Source: Synechocystis sp. PCC 6714 (GTDB taxonomy: Bacteria; Cyanobacteriota; Cyanobacteriia; Cyanobacteriales; Microcystaceae). From it: a stretch of 64,000 bases of DNA. The translations under genes were made by a program, and so were the position numbers. Position 1 is the stretch's first letter. The number at the start of each line of letters is the position of its first letter. The stretch spans positions 2,170,001-2,234,000 of the forward strand of contig NZ_CP007542.1 of assembly GCF_000478825.2 (NCBI RefSeq). The letters run 5' to 3'. This document shows positions 907 to 61,123 of the stretch, piece after piece. The notes under the pieces are model-generated. The model saw only the letters and a program-made list of their open reading frames with translations. It searched no databases and was not told where the DNA came from.

Positions 907-1000
907 AGAGTATTGCGTGAATAGCAAGTCTGTGGTGAAAAAGCCGACGGAAGGATGATGTTAGGCTCGAACAGGAGTTACATATCCCTGGGGGAATGAA

Positions 1001-1315
1001 GTGATGTTGTCTACAATCCTGGCGATCGCCCTATTGCTGGGGCTGTTCTGGTGGGCTAGACATAGGGCAGGTCGAAAAATTTCCTGGAGCAGAGGACGAC
1101 GGCGATCATCGGGGTTTCAACAGGCCATTGACAATTCCCGTTCAACATCCACTAGGGTTCCCGGTAGATTGCGGCGAGATCTAATCCGCATTGCCGGTAA
1201 TGCCCAAATAGCGGAGAGGTTAGTGCGAAATCTGCGGGCCAAGCATCCCGATCGCCCGGAGAACTGGTATTGGGAAAAGGCAATTTTTGATCTGGAACGC
1301 GATCGCCATTATTAG
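1001..1315 (+). CDS. Conserved hypothetical membrane-anchored protein, 104 aa
   Basis: I do not recognise a named family. The protein has one N-terminal transmembrane helix (about residues 3-19, ending in WWARH), a strongly basic middle rich in Arg and Ser, and a C-terminal segment (about residues 66-104) that looks folded and ends in a [16 protein letters not shown] stretch. That last part suggests a conserved cyanobacterial domain. The start is GTG 1001 or ATG 1004, both behind a GGGGGAA Shine-Dalgarno sequence at about 990. It is transcribed away from hliC. An in-frame HIP1 site at 1021-1030 lies in the membrane segment. The function is unknown; the orientation (short N-terminus outside, basic region in the cytoplasm) is inferred from charge. 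Confidence 0.7.
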
Positions 1316-1401
1316 TTCGATTGGGAGAGTTTTCCTCCCCCTCCCAGCGGCCCCCCTATTAGTTTGCCTGGGGTTTAGGGCCATGGGAACAACCAACTTG
1401 C

Positions 1402-1695
1402 CTATTTTTTGACCGATTCTAGGACTTTGAGAACCTGAATTTTTTGTTGGGGGGACAAATTGAGAGTTGGCAAAATAGCTTTAACTTCTTGGCCCTGGGC
1501 CAAACCAGCTTCGAGTTTACCTTTCTGTTGCTCATCAAGAATCGCACCCAATTTTTCGAGCACTTCTAGTTTTTCAGGGCTAATTTGCGGAGCCGCAGTG
1601 CCGGTCATGGTTTGGGCAAATGCTCCATAAAAGGGAGTAAAGGTGGTTAATGCTAAGGATAACCCTAGAATTAGGGATTTTAAAATTAATTTCAT
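1402..1695 (-). CDS. Exported hypothetical protein, 97 aa
   Basis: This small secreted protein is of unknown function. From ATG 1695 it starts with Lys and a hydrophobic stretch (about residues 2-21) and a likely signal-peptidase I site after GAFAQ. The mature part of about 70 residues is mostly helical and charged, with an LSPQQKIQVLKVLES motif near the C-terminus. It loosely recalls Spy/CpxP-like LTxxQ periplasmic helices, but the match is too weak to assign. The frame stays open upstream to a TTG at 1740, but that would put 15 polar residues before the signal peptide, so ATG 1695 is preferred. The nearest upstream feature on this strand is a possible 31-aa peptide gene at 1787-1882. Confidence 0.65.
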   Translation of the reverse strand: MKLILKSLILGLSLALTTFTPFYGAFAQTMTGTAAPQISPEKLEVLEKLGAILDEQQKGKLEAGLAQGQEVKAILPTLNLSPQQKIQVLKVLESVKK

Positions 1696-1786
1696 CGGCA
1701 ATACCATTAATTTTTCAAATTTTGAGGAATTTACTGTCAATTATAGCCCCAGCCAATAGAACTGATTGCTAGTCTTTAAGGTAGCC

Positions 1787-29543: not shown

Positions 29544-32500
29544 TTACCACGGGCTACCCACTAAAGTAAAACCACTCCAGAAGTAAGGATGACTCAATTC
29601 ATGGGTGGCTAACTGTTCTTGAAGTTTGATTGGTAATTCCGCCAGGGAAATAGTTATTCCATTCCCCAAGATTAAATTTCCGTCTTCCACTCGGATTTCT
29701 CGATTCAGCAGACTGAGTTGAGCCTGTTGTAGAGCCTTAGCTTTAATGGGAGACCCCTGCAAATGGTTATAGAAACTACTCATCAGCGCAAAGGTCCCTT
29801 CGTCACTAACAAACCAAAGGCTACCAATCGCCGTTTTAACTCCGGTTTTTACCGCCAATCCAGCAAAGCCCAATTCCGCGTCAAAGTCCCCCACGGCTGT
29901 GCGACAGGCTGATAGCACCATTAAGTCGATGGGCTTGTCCAAACCAACATTGGCAAATTGGTCTAAATTCAAAGACCTATCACTGAAAACCACAAAGGAA
30001 TTGTTACGATTACCAGGCAAGAATTCCCCATGGGTAGCTAGGTGCACCAGTCGATATTCGTTGGTAGCAAGGGACTGCACAAAATTATCTACAGTAAATT
30101 GCTCGTTCAAGAAAGCACTGCCCCGCCAGAGTTGACTAGTGATGGTATCCACTTCTACCGCCGCCGCCGGCAGTGGACTTTGGTTTGCAAATCTCTCTGC
30201 TCCCATGGCCAATATCTGGGCTCCAGTTAATGGTGCATACTCCCGGTTAGTTAAAGCCAAACTAGGCATTAACCCCACGCTATAGTCCTCAATCAAATAC
30301 CGCCCCAACTGGCGATCGTACATAGTTGCCATCGGCAGAGACCGCAGACCCCGGTCGAGAACAAAACTAATATGTTGAACTTTGCGTTGCTCCAAAATTG
30401 ACTTAATAGGTCTAATCAACCAGTCATATAGCTGGGAAGCTTGAATTTGATAGTCATCACTCTGACTGACAGCCGTTAAATTGCGGTGTAACAACTCCGT
30501 CTGGCGCACCACTTCCCGACGAGTAATGTTCAGGGGAATAGGTTTGGCAATGCCATCCGCTGTCACTACCACAATCACCAATTGATCATCTCCTTGGGGA
30601 TCATTATTGGGGGGAATAATCAATTGTTCCGTCGAAGCAATCTGCCATTCATGTAACTTCTGGGCGATCGCCACTGGGGGAATAACTTCTCCATCTAAAA
30701 AGGAAAATTGCCATTCCGGCACACTTTCTTCCGCTTTACCTGGGGGATAGAAGTAAATATAAACCAGTGATGACTTAACCCCCGTTTGGGCATCAAGATC
30801 CTGGAGGGCTTGTTGGACATTCACTGGTTCAACAATTACGTCAATGTCTAGGTAATTGATGAATTCAGAGGCGATCGTCTCCTCCACATTATCGAACAGT
30901 TGTTGCTCGAGGGTGAGCTGATCAAAAGGCAAACTTTGACCGACGGTAAGCTCAGAAGATTGATTTTGCTGGGTTAGATTTGTTTCAAGAGTAAAACGGG
31001 CTAACTCCTCCATTTGCAAATTGGGGGTATTGAGGTTAGTGGATCTTTCTACGTCGAAGAAAATCGGCCGTCCATCATCCCTGTCATCGACATCTGGAGG
31101 AACGGGTCTTTCCGGCTCGGGTTCAGGTTCCGGCTCGGGTTCAGGTTCCGGCTCGGGTTCAGGTTCCGGCTCGGGTTCAGGTTCCGGCTCGGGTTCAGGT
31201 TCCGGCTCGGGTTCAGGTTCCGGCTCGGGTTCAGGTTCCGGCTCGGGTTCAGGTTCCGGCTCGGGTTCAGGTTCCGGCTCGGGTTCAGGTTCCGGCTCGG
31301 GTTCAGGTTCCGGCTCGGGTTCAGGTTCCGGCTCGGGTTCAGGTTCCGGCTCGGGTTCAGGTTCCGGCTCGGGTTCAGGTTCCGGCTCGGGTTCAGGTTC
31401 CGGCTCGGGTTCAGGTTCCGGCTCGGGTTCAGGTTCCGGCTCGGGTTCAGGTTCCGGCTCGGGTTCAGGTTCCGGCTCGGGTTCAGGTTCCGGCTCGGGT
31501 TCAGGTTCCGGCTCGGGTTCAGGTTCCGGCTCAGGTTCAGGTTCCGGCTCGGGTTCAGGTTCCGGCTCAGGTTCAGGTTCCGGCTCGGGTTCAGGTTCCG
31601 GCTCGGGTTCAGGTTCCGGCTCGGGTTCAGGTTCCGGCTCGGGTTCAGGTTCCGGCTCGGGTTCAGGTTCCGGCTCGGGTTCAGGTTCCGGCTCGGGTTC
31701 AGGTTCCGGCTCGGGTTCAGGTTCCGGCTCGGGTTCAGGTTCCGGCTCGGGTTCAGGTTCCGGCTCGGGTTCAGGTTCCGGCTCGGGTTCAGGTTCCGGC
31801 TCGGGTTCAGGTTCCGGCTCGGGTTCAGGTTCCGGCTCGGGTTCAGGTTCCGGCTCGGGTTCAGGTTCCGGCTCGGGTTCAGGTTCCGGCTCGGGTTCAG
31901 GTTCCGGCTCGGGTTCAGGTTCCGGCTCAGGTTCAGGTTCCGGCTCGGGTTCAGGTTCCGGCTCAGATGGGAGATCTCCAATGGCAATAGTAATATCGCC
32001 GTCAACAGTGGTTTCGAAAAAAGACGTACCGATACTGATTGTATTGTCCGTGCCGGTGGTCAACGTTCCGGCCGTACCATTAACACTGGCATCTCCCACA
32101 ATGAATGGTGCTGTGTCACTACCAACTTGGATAAAAATTTGTCCACGACCATCGCCAAAGGTTGTAATTACGGGACCAAGTTGAGAAGCAGTGGAAATAC
32201 TTGCATTATTAAAGTCATCAATGATGCCCAGTGCACGGAAGGTATTGCCTGCAACGATTTTGACATTACCGCCAAATCCATTTAATCCCTCGGCATTGAT
32301 GAATTTGACTGTAATATTTTTACCGGCCGTTAGAGTAACATCGCCGCCATTATCTCCCGTTACGACAATATCTTCTGTTGTGATACTTCCCGACACGGCT
32401 TCTAGATTTACATTTCCTCCAAAACTATTTAGGGCTGTTGCTTCTGTAGAAATCGAGCCCGTCTGAATACTACCACCGGCTTTTAGAGATATTTCACCGC

Positions 32501-35500
32501 CAGCTGCGGATGCAAAAGTGTTAATTTCTTCCGTTGTAATGTTCCCCGTTGTGGAGCTTAAAGTGACATTGCCGGCATTTTGATTAGACCCAAAGGCCTC
32601 TATGGCTTTTGTGGTAATGTTACCCGCAGAATTGATGGTTACATTACCTCCGGATCCCCCGACCCCAAGTGAATAGGCGCCTATTGTATTTGTTGCTTCA
32701 ATACTGCCTCCAAAGGAAGTAATGTTGATGTCTCCGGCAAATGCATTGGCACTCCAAGTTTCCATCTTGCCGACGCTAATATCTCCATTGGCTGTTAAGT
32801 CTATGATCCCTCCGTCAAATCCCCCAGTAGCAGAATAAGCTTCTATTCCCCCCATTGTGATGTTGCCCACAGCACTAAGGCTCACATTACCTACTGCAGC
32901 GCCAATTGCAATCGTGCTTATTTGCCCTGGGAAGGTGATGTTGCCCGCAGAATTCAGTGTTACGTCCCCCCCAGCCCCAGAGCCCCCCACTAGCGAGTTG
33001 GCGTCTATATTCCCTGTTACAGCAATATCGCCGGAAAGGGAAGTTATGGTCACGTCCCCAGCAGATGTATTGGTGGTGGTGGTGTTAGAAGTCCGGGTGG
33101 AAATACTATCCACCTGAACATTGTCTCCCATAATGTTGACTTCCCCACCAGAACCAGTGAATCCTTGGGAATCGATGGAGCTAACGATAATACCCTGACC
33201 AGCTGTTAGTTCAACTTTACCGCCAATATTGCCTTTAGTTAAAATATCCCCTATGTCTGCACTGTCCTTGGCATCAATCAAAACAATGCCAGATGTCCCC
33301 CCTGTCTCTGTATCCAAAGCGGAGGCATTTACATCCCCTGCCACCACTTTACCCGCAGAATTTAGCGTTACGTTACCTCCAAATCCAGATGGAGCAAACT
33401 GTGCAGTGGCATCTATTTCCCCTACTGTAATGTCGCCGGCAAAGGAAGTGATGCTCACATCCCCAGCGGATGTAATTTCAGTGGTGGAATTGGACGTCAG
33501 AGTGGAGATGCTATCTACCTCAACACTTTCACCCAAAATGGTGACCTTACCACCGGAGCCGACGTTCCCCTCGGTGTCGATGATACTCACAGCAACAGCT
33601 TGACCGGCTTGCAAATTGACATTGCCGCCATTGTTCCCGTCGGTCAAAATTTCCTGTACGTTGATGGTGCCCCCAGCATCGATGAAGACGCTCCCTCCCG
33701 TGCTCTCAGATCCCGTAATAGCGGCCGAGGTATCTATCTGCCTCACCACAACTGAACCCGCAGAGTTTAGTGTTACATTACCCCCAGATTTACCAAATTC
33801 AAATGTGTCTATAACATCCATGGAAATGTTAGCGGATTTTACAACTTCCAGATTCCCGCCACGGGTCCTAATATCCCCCATGGCAATTTCATTTCCTGCC
33901 TCCAGAGTTATATTGACAGTTGCTTCTTCAGGTTGTAGGGATAACAAAGATGGACTGGTAATATTTTGTCCGGCAATGATTTTGAAGTCTCTATTGATCG
34001 AGATCTTATCGGTGAAGATTATCGATTCATTGATACTTTCTAGAGTTATTGGTTGAAGCTGTCCACTAAATGCCCCACTAAAAAGTTGGCTGCCCTGGGT
34101 GGTTATGTCATCGCCAACGTATATGCCTAAAGCCTTAGCTTCCAAGCTTCTGAGTGGAATAATATCCCCCAATTTTTTATTAAAATAAATATTGTCGGCC
34201 TCAATAATTAAGGCAAATTCACCGTTAATGGAGTCATCAAAAGTAATATCGTTGCCTAGAATATTAAAAGTTGCGTTGGCATCCAGTTCAATTCTATTTT
34301 CAATAGTTAGCTTGGTGGGTGATGTGATTAATATATTTCCAGTATTATTGATGGATGTATTAGCTAAGGTAATGAATCCTGTGCCTAGGGAAATTGGCGA
34401 AACCGGTGAAGTAATTTCTACTGTGGGGGAATCAAAAGTGAGGTTGCCACCGTCGCCATTCTTTGCTTGGGCATCAATCGAACCAACCGTAATTCCTTGA
34501 CTAGCTTTTAAGTTTATATCGCCTGCTTTAAAACCACCTTTTGTATCTATGTCGCCAATGGCGATATTCCCTTCTCCAGTTATATCAATTCGTCCCCCTG
34601 CACTAGCGTTGTTGTCAAAGGTTCCAGAGGAAAAGAGATCTCCAGTTTGTATATCTCCAATAGCCTGAAGATTAATAGAACCGGCGGTAGTTTCCCCTGC
34701 TGTATTTATGGTTTCGGTATCAATAGTGCCATCGGCAATTAGGTTAACGCTCCCTCCACTAAGCCCAGGATCTGTGGAGCGCCCAGAAGATAAATTTTTA
34801 GTTGTTATATTTTCCCCAGCGCTGAGATTAATTTGCCCACTGCTAAATTTTCCGACGGTGGTTATGTCCCCTGTCTCGATGGTCCCATCTGCAACTATGT
34901 CAACATTGCCTCCATTGGTGCCGACGGGAGTTTCTAGAAGACTAAAGGTTTTTAAATCTCCAGTTGTTACACTCCCACTGGATTGGAGATTAATATAACC
35001 TCCCGAAAATCCACCCATTGTGTCTATGAAACCGGTATTGATATTGCCGTCCGCAATGATGTCAATACTGCCTCCATTGCTACCCAAAACCAAAAAAGAA
35101 CCAAAAGCAGTTATGTCTCCTGTTGTTACGTTGGCGCTGGATTCAAAATTGATAGAACCTCCGCCAGAGCCAGCTAGGGTGTCGATGGAACCAGTAATGA
35201 TATCGCCTTGGCTGTTAACCACCACGTCCCCGCCAAAACCGCCAGGATCCTCTGTTCCTTTCGTGTTTATATTTCCTATGTCAACGACACCATCGGCAGT
35301 AATAAAGATATCTCCCCCCTGCACACCAGATGTCTCGACATCCCCGTCAATAAAGACATCAACCCCTGCATTAATATCAACTAATCTGCCGCTGGTTAAA
35401 ATACGCGTTCCTGTTACTGTGCCCCCATCTGCCCGAAAACTTCCCTTTGTGGTTGTTACTATTACCTTGCCAGTCTCATTTGCTTTACCAGTTTTTAAGG

Positions 35501-38240
35501 AAACAACATCAATATCTCCCTCTGCTGTAAGTTTGATATCACCACTACTTGCGACGCTATTCGTATTGATTGAATCTGTGGTGATCTTTCCCTGGCTTTC
35601 AATTAAAACATCTCCACCAAAACCTTCATTTCCTGAACCATCATCAAATCCACCGGTATTTATAGTTCCAGTGGTTGTGTCGCTTCCCGATACGATGGTT
35701 ACACCTCCCCCATTTACTCCACTAGTATCTATTAAACCAGTTCTAGTTATGCCTGAAGAAGTAATGTTTACTAGTCCACCATTTCCAATGCCTTGACCGT
35801 TAGAAAATATATCTTGAATATCTATGTTGCCTAGGGAAGAAAGTATATTTATATTTCCACCGTTACCATTGGAACCTCCTGTAGATAAACTATTAAGCTC
35901 AATACTACCCAAGGCGTTAATGGTTATATCTCCACCATCAATACCATAAGTATCTATCGCACCTAATGTGATCGCTGAGTTGGAAAATATATCAACTTTA
36001 CCGCCAGTAAAATTCTCGCCGAAAGCGCTTAAGAATCCTGAAGAAATTATGTCATCTCCCGACTTAAGGGTAATGTTACCACCGCTTTGAAAGCTAGATG
36101 CATTTATATTATTTAAAATAATCTCACCCACTGCCTGGATGTCAACATTGCCTCCCTTAATACCTCCGCTCCCCAATGCTGAAACGGAAATATCACCAAC
36201 CTGGATATTGCCTCCTGATTTTAAATTCACATCTCCACCATTACCATCAGGAAATTCAGATAATATTCTGGATGTTGATATGTCCCCTTCTGCAATGATG
36301 TTGATTGGACTACCAAGACCAGAAAATATATCAAATGTTGAAATACTACCAGTGTTGCTAACCAACTCTAGTGGATTAGCCTGGGTAAAAATGTCATTTC
36401 TAAAAACTTGATCTCCCTGTGTAGTTATCTTATTGCTAAGAAAAATATTTACCGCTTTAACATCAAGACTTGCTAGTGAATTGACATTTCCAGCTCCGTT
36501 GTTGAAGTAGACCGAGCCCGCCTCAATATCAACTAAAAGGTCAAAATTGCCATTTACAGACTCCCCAAAAGTGATGTCATATCCCGAAACCCTGAACGTT
36601 GTATCGGCGTTAAGCTCAACGTTGTTTTCAAAATTTAAGCCAGTAGATGAAGATGTGACTAATGTTTTTCCAGTATCAATAGGCCCTGTATTAGCAAAAA
36701 TAATTGAGCCAGTTCCTAAAGAAAAAAGGGCATCGATAGTGGTCGTGGGAGAATCGAAAGTGAGATTACCAGGGGCTGACGGATCTGCACTAAAATTTGA
36801 CTGAACGGCAATGGATTCATCTGCTTGAAGGATGACATTACCAGTGTCCAAGGCGGTTGTAATTGTGAATACAGAAACAAGCTTTGGTTCAGCAAAGAAA
36901 TCATCAGTAGTTCCGACAATTATTTCTAGGGGATCTAGCAACCAAGTACCTAGTTCCCCCATAGTCGCCAAGGTATTTACCCTGGCAGTTTCATCAACCA
37001 TCAAATTCTTAGCGCCGGAGGTTTCTACAAAACCCCCATCACCACCCAACAATCCCCCTCGAGCATTGATAGTGCCCCCAAAACGAGCAGAATCATCGGC
37101 CCAAACGATAACTGTTCCTCCATCCCCTGCGCCTAGGGCATCGGCGTTTATTGTCGATCCGGCATCTACAAGGGTTTGAGTTGCGCCAGGCAGATTGGGT
37201 TGGCCCTGAAAATCACCACCAATACGGACTGTACCGCCGCCGCCATTGCCTAAAACATCCACCGTAGCCCCTTGCACTGCAACCCGATCGCCGGCGATCG
37301 CCACTTGGCCACCGGAGGAAATATTAGTGCTTTTACCACTGGCATCAACATTGCCCGATACGGTGACAGAACCCGGTAATGAAGAAATCGTTGTATTTGT
37401 ACTTGTGTTAATTACACTGCCATCGGGTTGCACCGCTAAACCTAGATCGAGATTTTGTGCTCCCCGGGTCAACAGGGTCGGTAGATCCAGCACCGAAAAA
37501 GAACCATTTTTGCCAATCTGGGGAGAAACTTCCACCTCCAAACTCAGTAGACTGCCGACTTGGGAAATGCGGATACGATTTTGCCCTGGCACGGCGGCCA
37601 CGGTGATACTTCCCCCCGGTGCTGACAATGAACCAGTGTTGACAACGGTACTTCCCAAAAAGGTGAGACTTTTACCTTCCGTGACTGATAAATCCCCAGC
37701 ATTAATGATCAGCCCAGGGTTAGCCAAATCAAAGGCAAATTGGCTTGGATTGCCTATCAATGAACTGTAATCATTGTCAGAAAAAGCCTGGAACCATTGG
37801 TCATTACCAAAACCGATCGCCGAGCCGGTGGTGACGACAAAATCTCCCGGTACATTGATGCTGGCATTGGGACCAAAAATCATCCCCGCTGGGTTCATCA
37901 AAAAGAGATTGGAATTGCCCCCGGTAACTTGGATGAGACCGTTAATAATCGACGCATCCCCCCCCACAATTCGGGTGAGAATGTTACGAATATCGGGATT
38001 AGAAAGGAAATTGGCAATTTGTCCTTGGTCTAGCCCAAACTGTTGCAAACTGTGGAATAAATTCTTCCCATCGCCCGACAAACTGCCCCCACCAATGTTG
38101 AATTGATTTCCCTGGCTATCAACTGTTGTGCCAGTGCCGTCCGCAGCTGGGGTGATGTTCTGGGCCAAGACATTGGAGGGAAAACCAGGCAAACAAGCCA
38201 GTAAAGCTAGGCAAAAGAGGCGGAAACTGCGGTGCAACAC
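29544..38240 (-). CDS. Giant secreted TPS (haemagglutinin)-PE repeat-CHAT protein, long copy
   Basis: This 2,898-aa paralogue has the same plan: signal peptide (about 1-27, cut after VLAQ), TPS domain (about 28-330), a very long repeat region (about 400-2060) of [16 protein letters not shown]-type strands as in right-handed beta-helices, a Pro-Glu tract (about 2092-2376), a linker, and a CHAT domain with His2737 (HLATHGEF) and Cys2779 (LSACRTAVG). TPS proteins pass through an Omp85-type TpsB pore; CHAT domains are caspase-like peptidases. Together they suggest a cell-surface or released protease or a self-cleaving adhesin; this is inference. It lies 132 nt upstream of the short copy, same strand. 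GTG 38240 is the start. No TpsB gene is adjacent. Confidence 0.9.
31112..31966. repeat. Pro-Glu coding tandem repeat, longer and homogeneous array
   Basis: About 855 bp of head-to-tail 18-bp units, GGCTCGGGTTCAGGTTCC (plus strand), with only occasional GGCTCA variants (31531, 31567 and 31926 regions). On the minus strand it encodes about 285 alternating Pro and Glu residues. The homogeneity suggests recent expansion by slippage or unequal crossing-over. Confidence 0.95.
37204..38167. repeat. 964-bp block nearly identical to 28366-29329
   Basis: Partner of the block in the short TPS-CHAT gene, in the same orientation about 8.8 kb away. Same length, about 11 mismatches by eye. It spans the signal-peptide end and the TPS domain. 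Confidence 0.9.
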
Positions 38241-41353: not shown

Positions 41354-42979
41354 CTATGTATTTTCAGCCCCAAAGTCAGAAGAGCCAGAAAGATCAAACA
41401 CTGGCATGGGGTGAGACTTACCATTGGCAGAGGGCTGAATATCATCGAAAACCACAAATAACATACCGTTCTTTTTAGCTTCGTACATGGCCACGTCAGC
41501 ATGGTGGACTAGGCGATCGTGGTCGGTATGGGAACCGTTGCCGATAACAATGCCCACACTGGCCGACACCGAGAGGCGATGATTATCCAGCACCATAGGT
41601 TGGGAAAAAGCATGGTGGATACGGTAAGCACAGTTTTTGGCATCGTTCACCGATTGGATCGATTTGAGAACGATTACAAATTCATCCCCACTTAGACGAG
41701 CTACCTGGTCTCCATCCCTTACACACTTTAGAAGATTTTCCGCCACTTTTATTAGAACTTTATCGCCAAAATCATGGCCAAATTGATCATTAATTCGCTT
41801 GAATTTATTTAAATCTAAAAGTAAAAGTGCAAATAATTGTTTTTGGGAATGGCAATTGCTACTGAGTAACTCTGTTAAAAAATGGGAGAGAGAGCGACGA
41901 TTTGGCAAACTGGTTAAAGTATCATGACGAGAGTCATAATAAAGTTGATCGTTCATAGACTTCAATGAAGTCGTATCATTGAGTAACCAATAAAAACCAA
42001 TTACTTTTCCCTGGGTATCCCGTTGTTGGCTCACTTGAATATCTACACTGATGGGGGCGATCGCCAAGGTTTGTAATTGCATCGACCAACGATAGGGAAT
42101 TGACCATTTTTCCTCATCATTGACCATGGTCTTGAGTTGATTTTCAAAGATTAAAATTTGTTGTTGGGGCACATAATAAACTAATGGTTCTCCTTGCAAA
42201 ACATTGACGGGAAAGTTTAGCAAACGACAAGTATTAGCATTAGCATCTTTGATTCTGCCTTGCAAATCAGTGGTCAAATAATTACCCGGTAGCCAATTTA
42301 GTTGCCAAGATGATGGCGTATGTAAAACTTGAAGTTCTGACTTTTGTCGATAAAGTCTTTTACAATTTTCCCAAAGTCTTTTTTGATCTTCCTTAAGTTC
42401 TTCTGGGCAATCAATTATCGTTAATTTATCTGGATTACCCTGATAAATACTGGTAAAAATTCCCACAGCCTTTTCCGCTCTTAAATCTTCCCTATACCCT
42501 GGAGCAAAAATTTTGGCTTCTCCCTTGTCCACAAATGGACCAAAATAGTAGGTAACACAGGGAATCATGGTATGTATTTTTACCCAGCAATTGGCATGAG
42601 ATACCTGTTCAGAACCACCGTTACCATTATCAATACTGTTGGAAATATTACTTTGCACAGGGGAAAATTCCAGTAAAGAAAGATCATTTTTCCTGCCGTT
42701 AATCATTTCTGGCATAACTTGCCGAATTTCATTTTCAATGGCTAATCTTTCAGTGATGATATTTGATATATAATAGTCAGAGGAAAACTGCGAACTTTTC
42801 TCCCCTCTAGTTTTATGGCGGTTGGGGATTTTACTCAGGATTCTGGCTTTTAGCTCCAGACGGAAATAGGGAATGGACAAAGCCATGGCAAAAGGATGAT
42901 TCTGGGGAAATTCAAGCAAGAACTGGTCGATTTCTTCATCGACAATCATCAGAGTTTCGTTGACAAGATAGTGGGGCAC
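41354..42979 (-). CDS. ComFB-like + DUF1816 + PAS + GGDEF signalling protein
   Basis: This cytoplasmic 541-aa protein has an uncommon domain order. Residues 1-95 resemble the late-competence ComFB domain (N-terminal VDEEIDQFLLEFP, then FRLELKARILSKIPNRH), a family that binds cyclic dinucleotides in cyanobacteria. Residues about 128-200 are DUF1816 (CWVKIHTMIPCVTYYFGPF). A PAS domain (about 225-345) follows, then GGDEF (about 365-535). The active site is SGDEF at 430-434, with Ser at the first Gly, a variant found in some active cyclases. An RDGD I-site lies exactly five residues upstream. It probably makes and senses c-di-GMP. The start is GTG 42979. The Crp/Fnr gene lies upstream on the same strand. 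Confidence 0.8.
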   Translation of the reverse strand: MPHYLVNETLMIVDEEIDQFLLEFPQNHPFAMALSIPYFRLELKARILSKIPNRHKTRGEKSSQFSSDYYISNIITERLAIENEIRQVMPEMINGRKNDLSLLEFSPVQSNISNSIDNGNGGSEQVSHANCWVKIHTMIPCVTYYFGPFVDKGEAKIFAPGYREDLRAEKAVGIFTSIYQGNPDKLTIIDCPEELKEDQKRLWENCKRLYRQKSELQVLHTPSSWQLNWLPGNYLTTDLQGRIKDANANTCRLLNFPVNVLQGEPLVYYVPQQQILIFENQLKTMVNDEEKWSIPYRWSMQLQTLAIAPISVDIQVSQQRDTQGKVIGFYWLLNDTTSLKSMNDQLYYDSRHDTLTSLPNRRSLSHFLTELLSSNCHSQKQLFALLLLDLNKFKRINDQFGHDFGDKVLIKVAENLLKCVRDGDQVARLSGDEFVIVLKSIQSVNDAKNCAYRIHHAFSQPMVLDNHRLSVSASVGIVIGNGSHTDHDRLVHHADVAMYEAKKNGMLFVVFDDIQPSANGKSHPMPVFDLSGSSDFGAENT

Positions 42980-44843: not shown

Positions 44844-46586
44844 GTGTTTTCAATACTTATGCCAGACCATGCCCTCGGCTCTGTTACCCAAGGTTCCCTT
44901 AGTAAAGGCTTGGAAGTACGTCTCCATGCGGACGTTTCCGTGGAAGAAATGCGGGTAGGAAAATTTCTAGTTATTCAAGGTCGGCGATCGCGCTTTTTTT
45001 GTTTGCTCACCGATGTTTCTTTGGGAACGGCAAATCCAAGAATTTTGGCTAATCCTCCTAACATTAACGATGATTTTTTGATTGACGTGTTGGCCGGCAG
45101 CGGGACCTACGGCACCCTAGAATTGGCCCCCATGTTGATGTTAACGGAGTCAGAAAAAGAAACTGGTTCTAGTTCAACAAAGGGAGAAAGTTCAACTGAG
45201 CAAAATAACGGTAATGGCGTTGCTTCCTACCAAGCTAACAGTAATGCGGACGTGGAATTATTACCAGTGAAGACAATTCCAGCCCATTTTAGCCAGGTTT
45301 TTGAAGCTAGTGAACGGGATTTTCGGATGGTTTTTGGCTGGGAAGATGACCCTTTTTGCCGTAATTTTGCCATTGGTGAACCGTTAGATATGGCGGTGCC
45401 AGTTTGTTTAGACTTAGACCGTTTTGTGGAACGGAGCAATGGGGTATTCGGGAAATCAGGCACTGGGAAATCTTTTTTAACTAGATTATTAATTTCCGGC
45501 ATTATCCACAAACAGGCAGCGGTTAATTTGATGTTTGATATGCACTCGGAGTATGGTTGGGAGGCCATGAAGGAAGGCAAAACCGTTTCCACTGTTAAGG
45601 GTCTGCGGCAACTCTTTCCGGGAGAAGTGGAAATTTTTACCCTCGATGCAGAATCCACTAAACGGCGGGGGGTGAGGGGTGCCCAGGAACTCTATTTAAG
45701 CTTTGATCAAATTGAAATTGAAGACATTCGTTTAGTGGGTTTTGAGTTAGGCCTATCGGAAGCAGCATTGGACAATGCCAATATTTTATTTTCTGAATTT
45801 GGCTCTAGTTGGATTTCCCGTTTATTGGTGATGACTAATGAAGAAATTAAGGTTTTTTGTGAAGAAAAACAAGGACATCCCGGTTCTATTATGTCTTTGC
45901 AAAGAAAGTTAAAACGGTTGGAAAATTTAAAATACTTAAAACAAATTAGTACCCATAACTACATTGACCAACTGTTGCAATGTTTGGAAGCGGGTAAACA
46001 TGTGGTAATTGAATTTGGTTCCCAATCTAATTTGCTTTCCTACATGTTGGCTACCAACATGATCACCAGACGTATCCATGGTATTTACGTTAAAAAAGCA
46101 GAAAAATTTCTCCAAACTAAACACGTTGGCGATCGCCCGAGGCAATTGGTGATCACCATTGAGGAAGCCCACCGCTTTTTGGATTCTGCCATTGTCCACC
46201 AAACTATTTTTGGCACCATTGCTAGGGAAATGCGGAAATACTTTGTCACTTTGTTGGTGGTGGACCAGCGGCCGTCTGGCATTGACAATGAGGTTATGTC
46301 CCAAATTGGCACCCGCATCACTTGTTTACTGAACGACGAAAAGGATATTGAAGCCATTTTTACTGGGGTATCAGGGGGGCAAAACTTACGTTCCGTGCTG
46401 GCCAAGCTGGATTCCAAGCAACAGGCTTTGGTGTTGGGCCATGCGGTGCCTATGCCCGTGGTAGTGCGGACCCGGGCCTACGACCAGCAGTTTTATAGTG
46501 AAATTGGTTGCAGTGATTGGGGCGAGAAAACCGATGCGGAAGTGTTGGCCGAAGCGGCGATCGCCAGGGAGGATCTAGGCTTTTAG
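44844..46586 (+). CDS. HerA/VirB4-type ATPase (DUF87)
   Basis: This 580-aa protein belongs to the HerA-FtsK branch of hexameric ATPases. The N-terminal 130 residues form a HAS-barrel-like beta domain. A Ser/Glu/Asn-rich linker (about 98-130) follows. The ATPase core has Walker A FGKSGTGKSFL (about 203-213), Walker B LVITIEEAHRF (about 435) and an arginine-finger-type region near RPSGIDNEVMSQIGTR. HerA proteins translocate DNA, usually with the nuclease NurA, which is not adjacent here; the natural role in cyanobacteria is unclear to me. GTG 44844 follows an AAGGGG ribosome site at 6 nt spacing and is preferred over ATG 44859. Codon use matches its neighbours. Confidence 0.85.
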   Translation: MFSILMPDHALGSVTQGSLSKGLEVRLHADVSVEEMRVGKFLVIQGRRSRFFCLLTDVSLGTANPRILANPPNINDDFLIDVLAGSGTYGTLELAPMLMLTESEKETGSSSTKGESSTEQNNGNGVASYQANSNADVELLPVKTIPAHFSQVFEASERDFRMVFGWEDDPFCRNFAIGEPLDMAVPVCLDLDRFVERSNGVFGKSGTGKSFLTRLLISGIIHKQAAVNLMFDMHSEYGWEAMKEGKTVSTVKGLRQLFPGEVEIFTLDAESTKRRGVRGAQELYLSFDQIEIEDIRLVGFELGLSEAALDNANILFSEFGSSWISRLLVMTNEEIKVFCEEKQGHPGSIMSLQRKLKRLENLKYLKQISTHNYIDQLLQCLEAGKHVVIEFGSQSNLLSYMLATNMITRRIHGIYVKKAEKFLQTKHVGDRPRQLVITIEEAHRFLDSAIVHQTIFGTIAREMRKYFVTLLVVDQRPSGIDNEVMSQIGTRITCLLNDEKDIEAIFTGVSGGQNLRSVLAKLDSKQQALVLGHAVPMPVVVRTRAYDQQFYSEIGCSDWGEKTDAEVLAEAAIAREDLGF

Positions 46587-60868: not shown

Positions 60869-61123
60869 ATGTTTGGCGTTCTGCTGTTCCTTGTTTTCTT
60901 CTGTGCCGTCAGTCTAGCCTTTTTTGCCAACCGTAAATGGTGGATTCGTGTTTCCACCCAATCTCCCCGCTGTATCTACTATTTTGGCCCCTTTACTTCC
61001 CAAGAAGAGGCGATCGCCCACCACCAAGGTTACCTCCAGGATTTGGAAATGGAGGGAGCCCAGGGCATCGAATATAAGATAGAACTCTCCCATAAACCGA
61101 AAAAATTAACCGTCGAAGATTAA
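60869..61123 (+). CDS. Small membrane-anchored DUF1816 protein, 84 aa
   Basis: This 84-aa protein has one N-terminal transmembrane helix (about 1-20) and a DUF1816 domain (about 23-75), KWWIRVSTQSPRCIYYFGPF followed by SQEEAIAHHQGYLQDLE. The domain is the same as in the GGDEF fusion protein at 41354-42979 (VKIHT...CVTYYFGPF). DUF1816 is a cyanobacterial family of unknown function. ATG 60869 is preferred to TTG 60863. It is divergent from the DUF389 gene and converges on the Bax-inhibitor-1 gene, with a terminator for the latter in between. Confidence 0.82.
   Translation: MFGVLLFLVFFCAVSLAFFANRKWWIRVSTQSPRCIYYFGPFTSQEEAIAHHQGYLQDLEMEGAQGIEYKIELSHKPKKLTVED

Follow-up and report, generated by a model that had tools for sequence, protein, structure and literature searches.

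A ComFB-like, DUF1816, PAS and GGDEF domain protein encoded beside a CRP-family regulator in Synechocystis sp. PCC 6714

What does a diguanylate cyclase gain from an N-terminal part that resembles a cyclic dinucleotide receptor, and with which partner might that part act? The question is raised by a gene in a 64,000-nucleotide stretch of Synechocystis sp. PCC 6714 DNA (the window), in which ComFB-like, DUF1816, PAS and GGDEF domains had been recognized within a single protein. This domain make-up was confirmed by the open reading frame, by a Pfam-A scan, and by profile and fold comparison (Table 1). The reading frame begins with GTG; methionine occupies the equivalent position in four translated orthologues, where the codon is ATG, and the plus-strand reading of 41354-42979 contains many stops. 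The Pfam-A scan detected PAS_4 at residues 230-339 (E 7.1e-7; 29.9 bits relative to a cut-off of 23.1) and returned no match within residues 1-127. The strings VDEEI (residues 13-17) and LELKARILSKIPNRH (residues 41-55) are both found in the protein. Elsewhere in the window, a 2898-aa open reading frame (29544-38240, minus strand) resembles, as judged by eye, secreted proteins of the haemagglutinin type and has a very long tract of Glu-Pro repeats ahead of a C-terminal part that looks CHAT-like, and a gene for a HerA-like ATPase with a HAS-barrel (44844-46586, plus strand) is transcribed away from the CRP gene.

Table 1. Positions in the window of the fusion gene, its domains and motifs, and two further genes
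Feature	Position	Strand	Basis or remark
Fusion gene, ComFB-like/DUF1816/PAS/GGDEF, 541 aa	41354..42979	-	ORF and Pfam-A scan
ComFB-like domain, residues 1-100	42680..42979	-	profile homology and predicted fold
DUF1816 domain (PF08846), residues 128-188	42416..42598	-	72.1 bits, cut-off 27, E 3.9e-20
PAS domain, residues 230-339	41963..42292	-	PF08448 and PF00989 above cut-offs
GGDEF domain (PF00990), residues 351-506	41462..41929	-	160.8 bits, cut-off 23.8, E 2.9e-47
I-site RxxD (R421-D424)	41708..41719	-	sequence motif
Catalytic SGDEF motif, residues 430-434	41678..41692	-	sequence motif
CRP/FNR-family regulator, 238 aa	43252..43968	-	HTH_Crp_2 and cNMP_binding both above cut-off
Separate small DUF1816 gene (domain part)	60926..61114	+	~18 kb from fusion gene

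The architecture is a variant of the sensory diguanylate cyclases, a known kind of enzyme. The C-terminal part combines a PF00990 match above cut-off with a GG(D/E)EF-type motif, the DxxxFKxxND motif, and an RxxD I-site. DxxxFKxxND (DLNKFKRIND in the window protein) and RxxD (RDGD) are kept in all eight full-length fusion proteins that were examined (the window protein among them), which bears out the earlier assignment of a diguanylate cyclase with an I-site. The catalytic motif among these eight proteins is SGDEF in six and GGDEF in two, with the window protein having S for the first G. The I-site ends five residues ahead of SGDEF in the window protein; its assignment follows the spacing rule of PleD, and DxxxFKxxND, RxxD and SGDEF are read in their usual functional sense. 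In a fold search with the full-length model the list of matches was taken up by structures of the GGDEF and PAS-GGDEF types, at Z about 18-21, and these masked DUF1816. The PAS-GGDEF part of PA0861 (PDB 5xgb/5xgd/5xge) has PAS and GGDEF parts and catalytic motifs in common with the fusion protein, which differs from PA0861 in having no EAL domain and in having N-terminal ComFB-like and DUF1816 parts. On these motifs the fusion protein should be an enzyme that makes c-di-GMP.

The identity of the N-terminal domain, which the original prediction took to be ComFB-like, was probed with profiles. The window protein gave no match to PF10719 (ComFB) at a limit of E 10, at which HMMER filters discard most matches above about 0.1, and no ComFB match in an NCBIfam scan; its own genome contains three separate canonical ComFB genes. 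Profile A2, built from the N-termini of five fusions, matched sequences in 55 of 386 cyanobacterial genomes; most of these matches lie in stand-alone frames about 80-200 aa long. Ten such stand-alone relatives were compared with PF10719: three scored above the cut-off, six below it, and one (L041), which is among the relatives closest to the fusion, gave no match. Alignment A4, of 30 ComFB-like domains from fusion and stand-alone proteins, gave a profile that matched the one of 26 canonical ComFB domains from cyanobacteria (A5) at a probability of 91% and E 9.7e-7 over 77 columns; in the shuffle control the repeat comparison gave 89% and the best of 100 column shuffles 3.4%. The profile of eight fusion N-termini alone gave a probability of 0.5% against canonical ComFB, a value that 20 of 100 shuffles equalled or exceeded, so the ComFB link depends on the stand-alone intermediates. 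A profile of the N-terminal family run against PDB sequences returned seven weak matches (best E 0.069), none of which is a ComFB chain.

The structure of residues 1-100 was predicted (pLDDT 79.7) from alignment A4, which holds zero A5 rows and includes three relatives that exceed the Pfam ComFB cut-off. Foldseek placed Bacillus ComFB (4wai) first, with E 0.32 and a probability of 0.82, and listed Synechocystis CdgR (8hja) eleventh. Re-examination of the Foldseek list by VIA, which is not independent of Foldseek, ranked 4wai first (Z 7.1, 3.8 Å, 84 residues aligned) and 8hja second (Z 6.7, 4.3 Å, 88 residues aligned), with the next row at Z 5.5. Scores of this size (Z near 7 for a helical domain) are modest and by themselves insufficient to settle a ComFB fold; the matches gain weight from the fact that the top structures belong to the family already indicated by the sequences. 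Residues 1-100 are thus best described as a divergent ComFB-like domain and not as a canonical ComFB, a distant relationship that runs through the intermediates and is supported by the fold comparison. Homology was borne out by the profile that includes the stand-alone relatives, and a ComFB fold by the leading Foldseek and VIA matches; the assignment failed with the Pfam HMM and with the fusion-only profile.

How much of ComFB is retained was evaluated at individual residues. Nine positions are invariant in the 26 canonical cyanobacterial domains. The window protein keeps three of them (N, L, P); the changed residues are E, N, P, Y, G, and Q, of which the conserved G and Q follow the LNRLPPLY motif and lie where the alignment is uncertain. 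Bacillus ComFB is an obligate dimer with N4, E7 and Y46 in the interface and C25, C27, C30 and C88 as zinc ligands (PMC4381287). At the interface positions the window protein has N, L, and H, replacing the E and the Y of Bacillus subtilis ComFB, and its residues 1-100 contain zero cysteines and hence no counterparts of the zinc ligands; the identity to this top structural match is 13%. The stand-alone ComFB-like small proteins of cyanobacteria are homologous to fusion residues 1-100 and have no fused cyclase. Some of them pass the Pfam ComFB cut-off, unlike the fusion protein, and at the end of the core motif they mostly have Y where the fusions mostly have H.

The best-characterized relatives are the CdgR/ComFB proteins (Slr1970 in Synechocystis, Alr3277 in Nostoc/Anabaena; PF10719; 8hja), whose fold resembles that predicted for the fusion head and which share with it an N-terminal N and an L..[IL]P core. 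The fusion head differs from them in being missed by the Pfam ComFB model and in the six altered invariants. ComFB/CdgR binds c-di-AMP and c-di-GMP at micromolar strength, with a KD of about 2.6 µM for c-di-AMP in the case of Synechocystis ComFB (PMC12313861). In Anabaena, CdgR works partly through the CRP-family factor DevH, and CdgR is reported not to interact with the major cyclases of that organism (PMC13075795); a review (PMC10519070) adds nothing further on CdgR ligand contacts. CdgR is a separate protein, whereas the fusion head and the cyclase form one chain. A CRP-family link is common to both, through DevH in Anabaena and through the neighbouring gene at the fusion locus.

The distribution of the family was followed in ranked profile-search lists, so that stand-alone and fusion loci are counted among the matches listed. 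Related genomes are not independent. A ComFB-like match is present in 174 of 388 genomes of the window's order. Among the matches listed, ten genomes contain the fused ComFB-like/DUF1816/GGDEF gene (G000, G003, G004, G009, G046, G166, G199, G238, G507, and G536), and a further fusion copy is found in G568 (L164), where the contig ends inside the gene. Of the DUF1816 matches listed across 292 genomes, only seven lie in open frames longer than 200 aa, and all seven are fusions. In a tree of 121 ComFB-like domains, which omits two short rows (L174 and the second hit in L175), the 11 fusions form one clade (100/91) that is nested with three CRP-linked stand-alone genes from G012, G027, and G058 (99/91). 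The CRP-linked stand-alone genes do not form one clade (3 changes) and are placed around the fusion clade, on a tree of a short domain in which many forks are unresolved and the root serves for drawing only. The simplest reading of this tree, which is not proof, would be that the CRP link is older than the fusion.

The CRP gene lies directly upstream of the fusion gene on the same strand; the two need not form one operon because they are 272 bp apart. Of the 11 fusion loci, 10 have a CRP-family regulator upstream in the same orientation (nine of the ten intact fusions and the G568 copy), the exception being G009. At five fusion loci (G046, G199, G238, G166, and G507) a second CRP-type gene, or its start, is found downstream. 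When 58 relatives were searched for the regulator at an identity of at least 59%, it was detected in 10 genomes, nine of which have a ComFB-like gene just downstream: fused in four (G000, G003, G004, G046) and stand-alone in five (G012, G013, G020, G027, G034). The stand-alone ComFB-like genes nearest to the fusion follow a CRP gene of the type that precedes the fusion itself. In the tenth genome (G001) the contig continues for 692 nt beyond the CRP gene and contains no ComFB-like gene over that distance. Around CRP genes of lower similarity (L132-L151) a single, weak ComFB-like match was found (L150, E 2.5e-4); the link thus holds for the closest CRP genes only.

The converse search started from 112 stand-alone ComFB-like loci. 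This set excludes L164 (G568), which is grouped with the fusions, and includes one degenerate copy, the second hit in L175; with L164 added, 103 of 113 rows have at least 1.5 kb on both sides. At seven of the 112 a CRP gene of this type precedes the ComFB-like gene on its own strand, at one more it is divergent, and no such gene is present within 1.5 kb of sequence covered at the other 104. Control loci, searched up to 1.5 kb on each side for a match to this CRP protein at E 1e-6, gave 0/32 for canonical ComFB, 0/15 for GGDEF, and 0/10 for DUF1816. At three loci (L095, L165, and L191, in G012, G027, and G058) the stand-alone ComFB-like gene is flanked by two CRP-type genes, of which the downstream one has the opposite orientation. 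The CRP-family neighbour, which did not figure in the original prediction, may be the best clue to the function of the fusion.

The fusion had been taken as a hint that DUF1816 belongs to c-di-GMP signalling. In 47 of 50 genomes from the window's cyanobacterial family the domain exceeds the Pfam cut-off, mostly in small proteins. Among the matches listed, all 35 genomes with DUF1816 from one family of small-genome cyanobacteria (f36), which we take to be probably marine picocyanobacteria, were checked for GGDEF, and the domain is absent from 30. DUF1816 exceeds the Pfam cut-off in all 30 of these genomes, PF10719 is found in none, and with the ComFB-like profile a single weak match was obtained, in an 844-aa frame of G290 (E 0.002). 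DUF1816 as such is therefore independent of c-di-GMP and of Pfam-detectable ComFB, and the general claim that it is a c-di-GMP module was rejected.

A narrower association is nevertheless observed, in that DUF1816 recurs beside ComFB-like genes that have no fused GGDEF domain. A DUF1816 gene or fragment lies within 1.5 kb of 9 of the 112 stand-alone ComFB-like genes (L210 being included in the count), on the same strand in all nine cases, where about 0.16 would be expected by chance assuming 2.5 DUF1816 copies per 6 Mb. The nine pairs span seven taxonomic families, and three of the nine come from one family. Up to 1.5 kb on each side of control loci DUF1816 was found at 0/32 canonical ComFB and 0/15 GGDEF genes. 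A smaller sample, the first 20 stand-alone ComFB-like loci, had no DUF1816 within 8 kb, the link being visible only in the larger set, and none of the 112 loci has both a DUF1816 gene and a CRP gene within 1.5 kb. A GGDEF gene is located within 1.5 kb of one of the 112 and within about 3 kb of six more, in genomes where GGDEF genes are common and with a profile built from fusions only, so that no conclusion is drawn from these cases. Thus DUF1816 recurs next to ComFB-like genes, as CRP genes do in one branch, separately from the cyclase.

Individual neighbourhoods vary in form. Two of the nine DUF1816 neighbours are fragments, apparently of decayed genes (L171 in G048 and L186 in G044). At L178 in G036 (958-1728, plus strand) a protein with pentapeptide repeats, recognized by eye, and DUF1816 is encoded directly downstream of the stand-alone ComFB-like gene on the same strand. 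L240 (G052) contains a CRP-type gene (40% identity), then a DUF1816 gene on the same strand, then an ORF that by eye is response-regulator-like, and no ComFB-like gene; this locus was chosen for its CRP-DUF1816 pair and, having no ComFB-like match, stands outside the counts.

We tentatively favor a model, possible though short of probable, in which a cyclase under PAS control uses its ComFB-like/DUF1816 head to dock the neighbouring CRP regulator, beside which c-di-GMP is made. The ComFB-like part would most likely dimerize, as ComFB does, and the head would contact the product of the adjacent upstream gene, in a manner comparable to the action of CdgR through DevH in Anabaena (PMC13075795). 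Synthesis by the GGDEF domain would be controlled by the PAS domain and subject to feedback at the I-site; c-di-GMP would thus be produced beside the CRP protein, whose DNA binding may be affected by docking. Several observations weigh against this model: the failure of PF10719 and of the fusion-only profile, the three of nine invariants, the E-to-L and Y-to-H changes at the interface, the modest fold scores, the G009 and G001 exceptions, the 272-bp gap, the restriction of the link to the closest CRP genes, the scatter of the CRP-linked stand-alone genes on the tree, and the 104 of 112 stand-alone loci with no such CRP gene within 1.5 kb. Gene neighbours can, moreover, be inherited passively. 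Diguanylate cyclases function as dimers, and the head could merely pair two cyclases, the CRP gene being inherited gene order with no physical partnership. The obligate dimer formed by Bacillus ComFB (PMC4381287) is in keeping with such a scaffold, as is the single fusion clade, from which one placement beside a CRP gene could have been passed on; the CRP link, however, reaches stand-alone relatives in other genera, outside that clade, and we consider a plain scaffold somewhat unlikely. About equally doubtful is an extension of the docking model in which the locus is a self-contained second-messenger switch, the head physically holding the CRP regulator and the fused cyclase loading it with local c-di-GMP, and in which ComFB-like and DUF1816 proteins are a general, unrecognized cyanobacterial pair that acts on CRP-type regulators with or without c-di-GMP.

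The original prediction was that the N-terminus could sense the product of its own cyclase. In this reading it would bind c-di-GMP (or c-di-AMP) and allosterically switch the cyclase behind it. A ComFB-like domain at the N-terminus and the micromolar affinities of ComFB/CdgR for both dinucleotides (PMC12313861) are consistent with this idea, which so far is not supported by the residues: six of the nine canonical invariants are changed, among them G and Q, where the alignment is uncertain, and the I-site could already give product feedback. Product sensing by the head is, in our judgment, distinctly unlikely. The serine in place of the first glycine of GGDEF might instead mark an inactive domain that acts as a c-di-GMP sensor, but all eight fusion proteins that were examined keep DxxxFKxxND and (S/G)GDEF, with GGDEF itself in two, and such a sensor role is very unlikely. 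A general role for DUF1816 as a c-di-GMP signalling module finds some encouragement in the fusion and in the DUF1816 genes or fragments beside nine stand-alone ComFB-like genes; the 30 of 35 small-genome carriers with neither GGDEF nor PF10719 largely refute it, and it is scarcely credible in that general form.

Searches that left out preprints and most subscription papers, and so are weak evidence of absence, found no paper on DUF1816 and none that joins ComFB with GGDEF or diguanylate. The new content of the present analysis is in the neighbourhood links, of the fusion to a CRP regulator and of ComFB-like genes to DUF1816 genes, and the notion of DUF1816 as inherently a c-di-GMP domain is corrected. 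The fusion and the CRP gene together suggest a compact signal-to-gene switch. The locus unites in testable form the receptor family of ComFB and CdgR, for which connections with competence and cell size have recently emerged, the cyanobacterial domain DUF1816, which has no assigned role, and a CRP-family regulator. If the head does dock the regulator, this would provide a functional context for DUF1816 and would show how a ComFB-type domain relays a c-di-GMP signal to a transcription factor.
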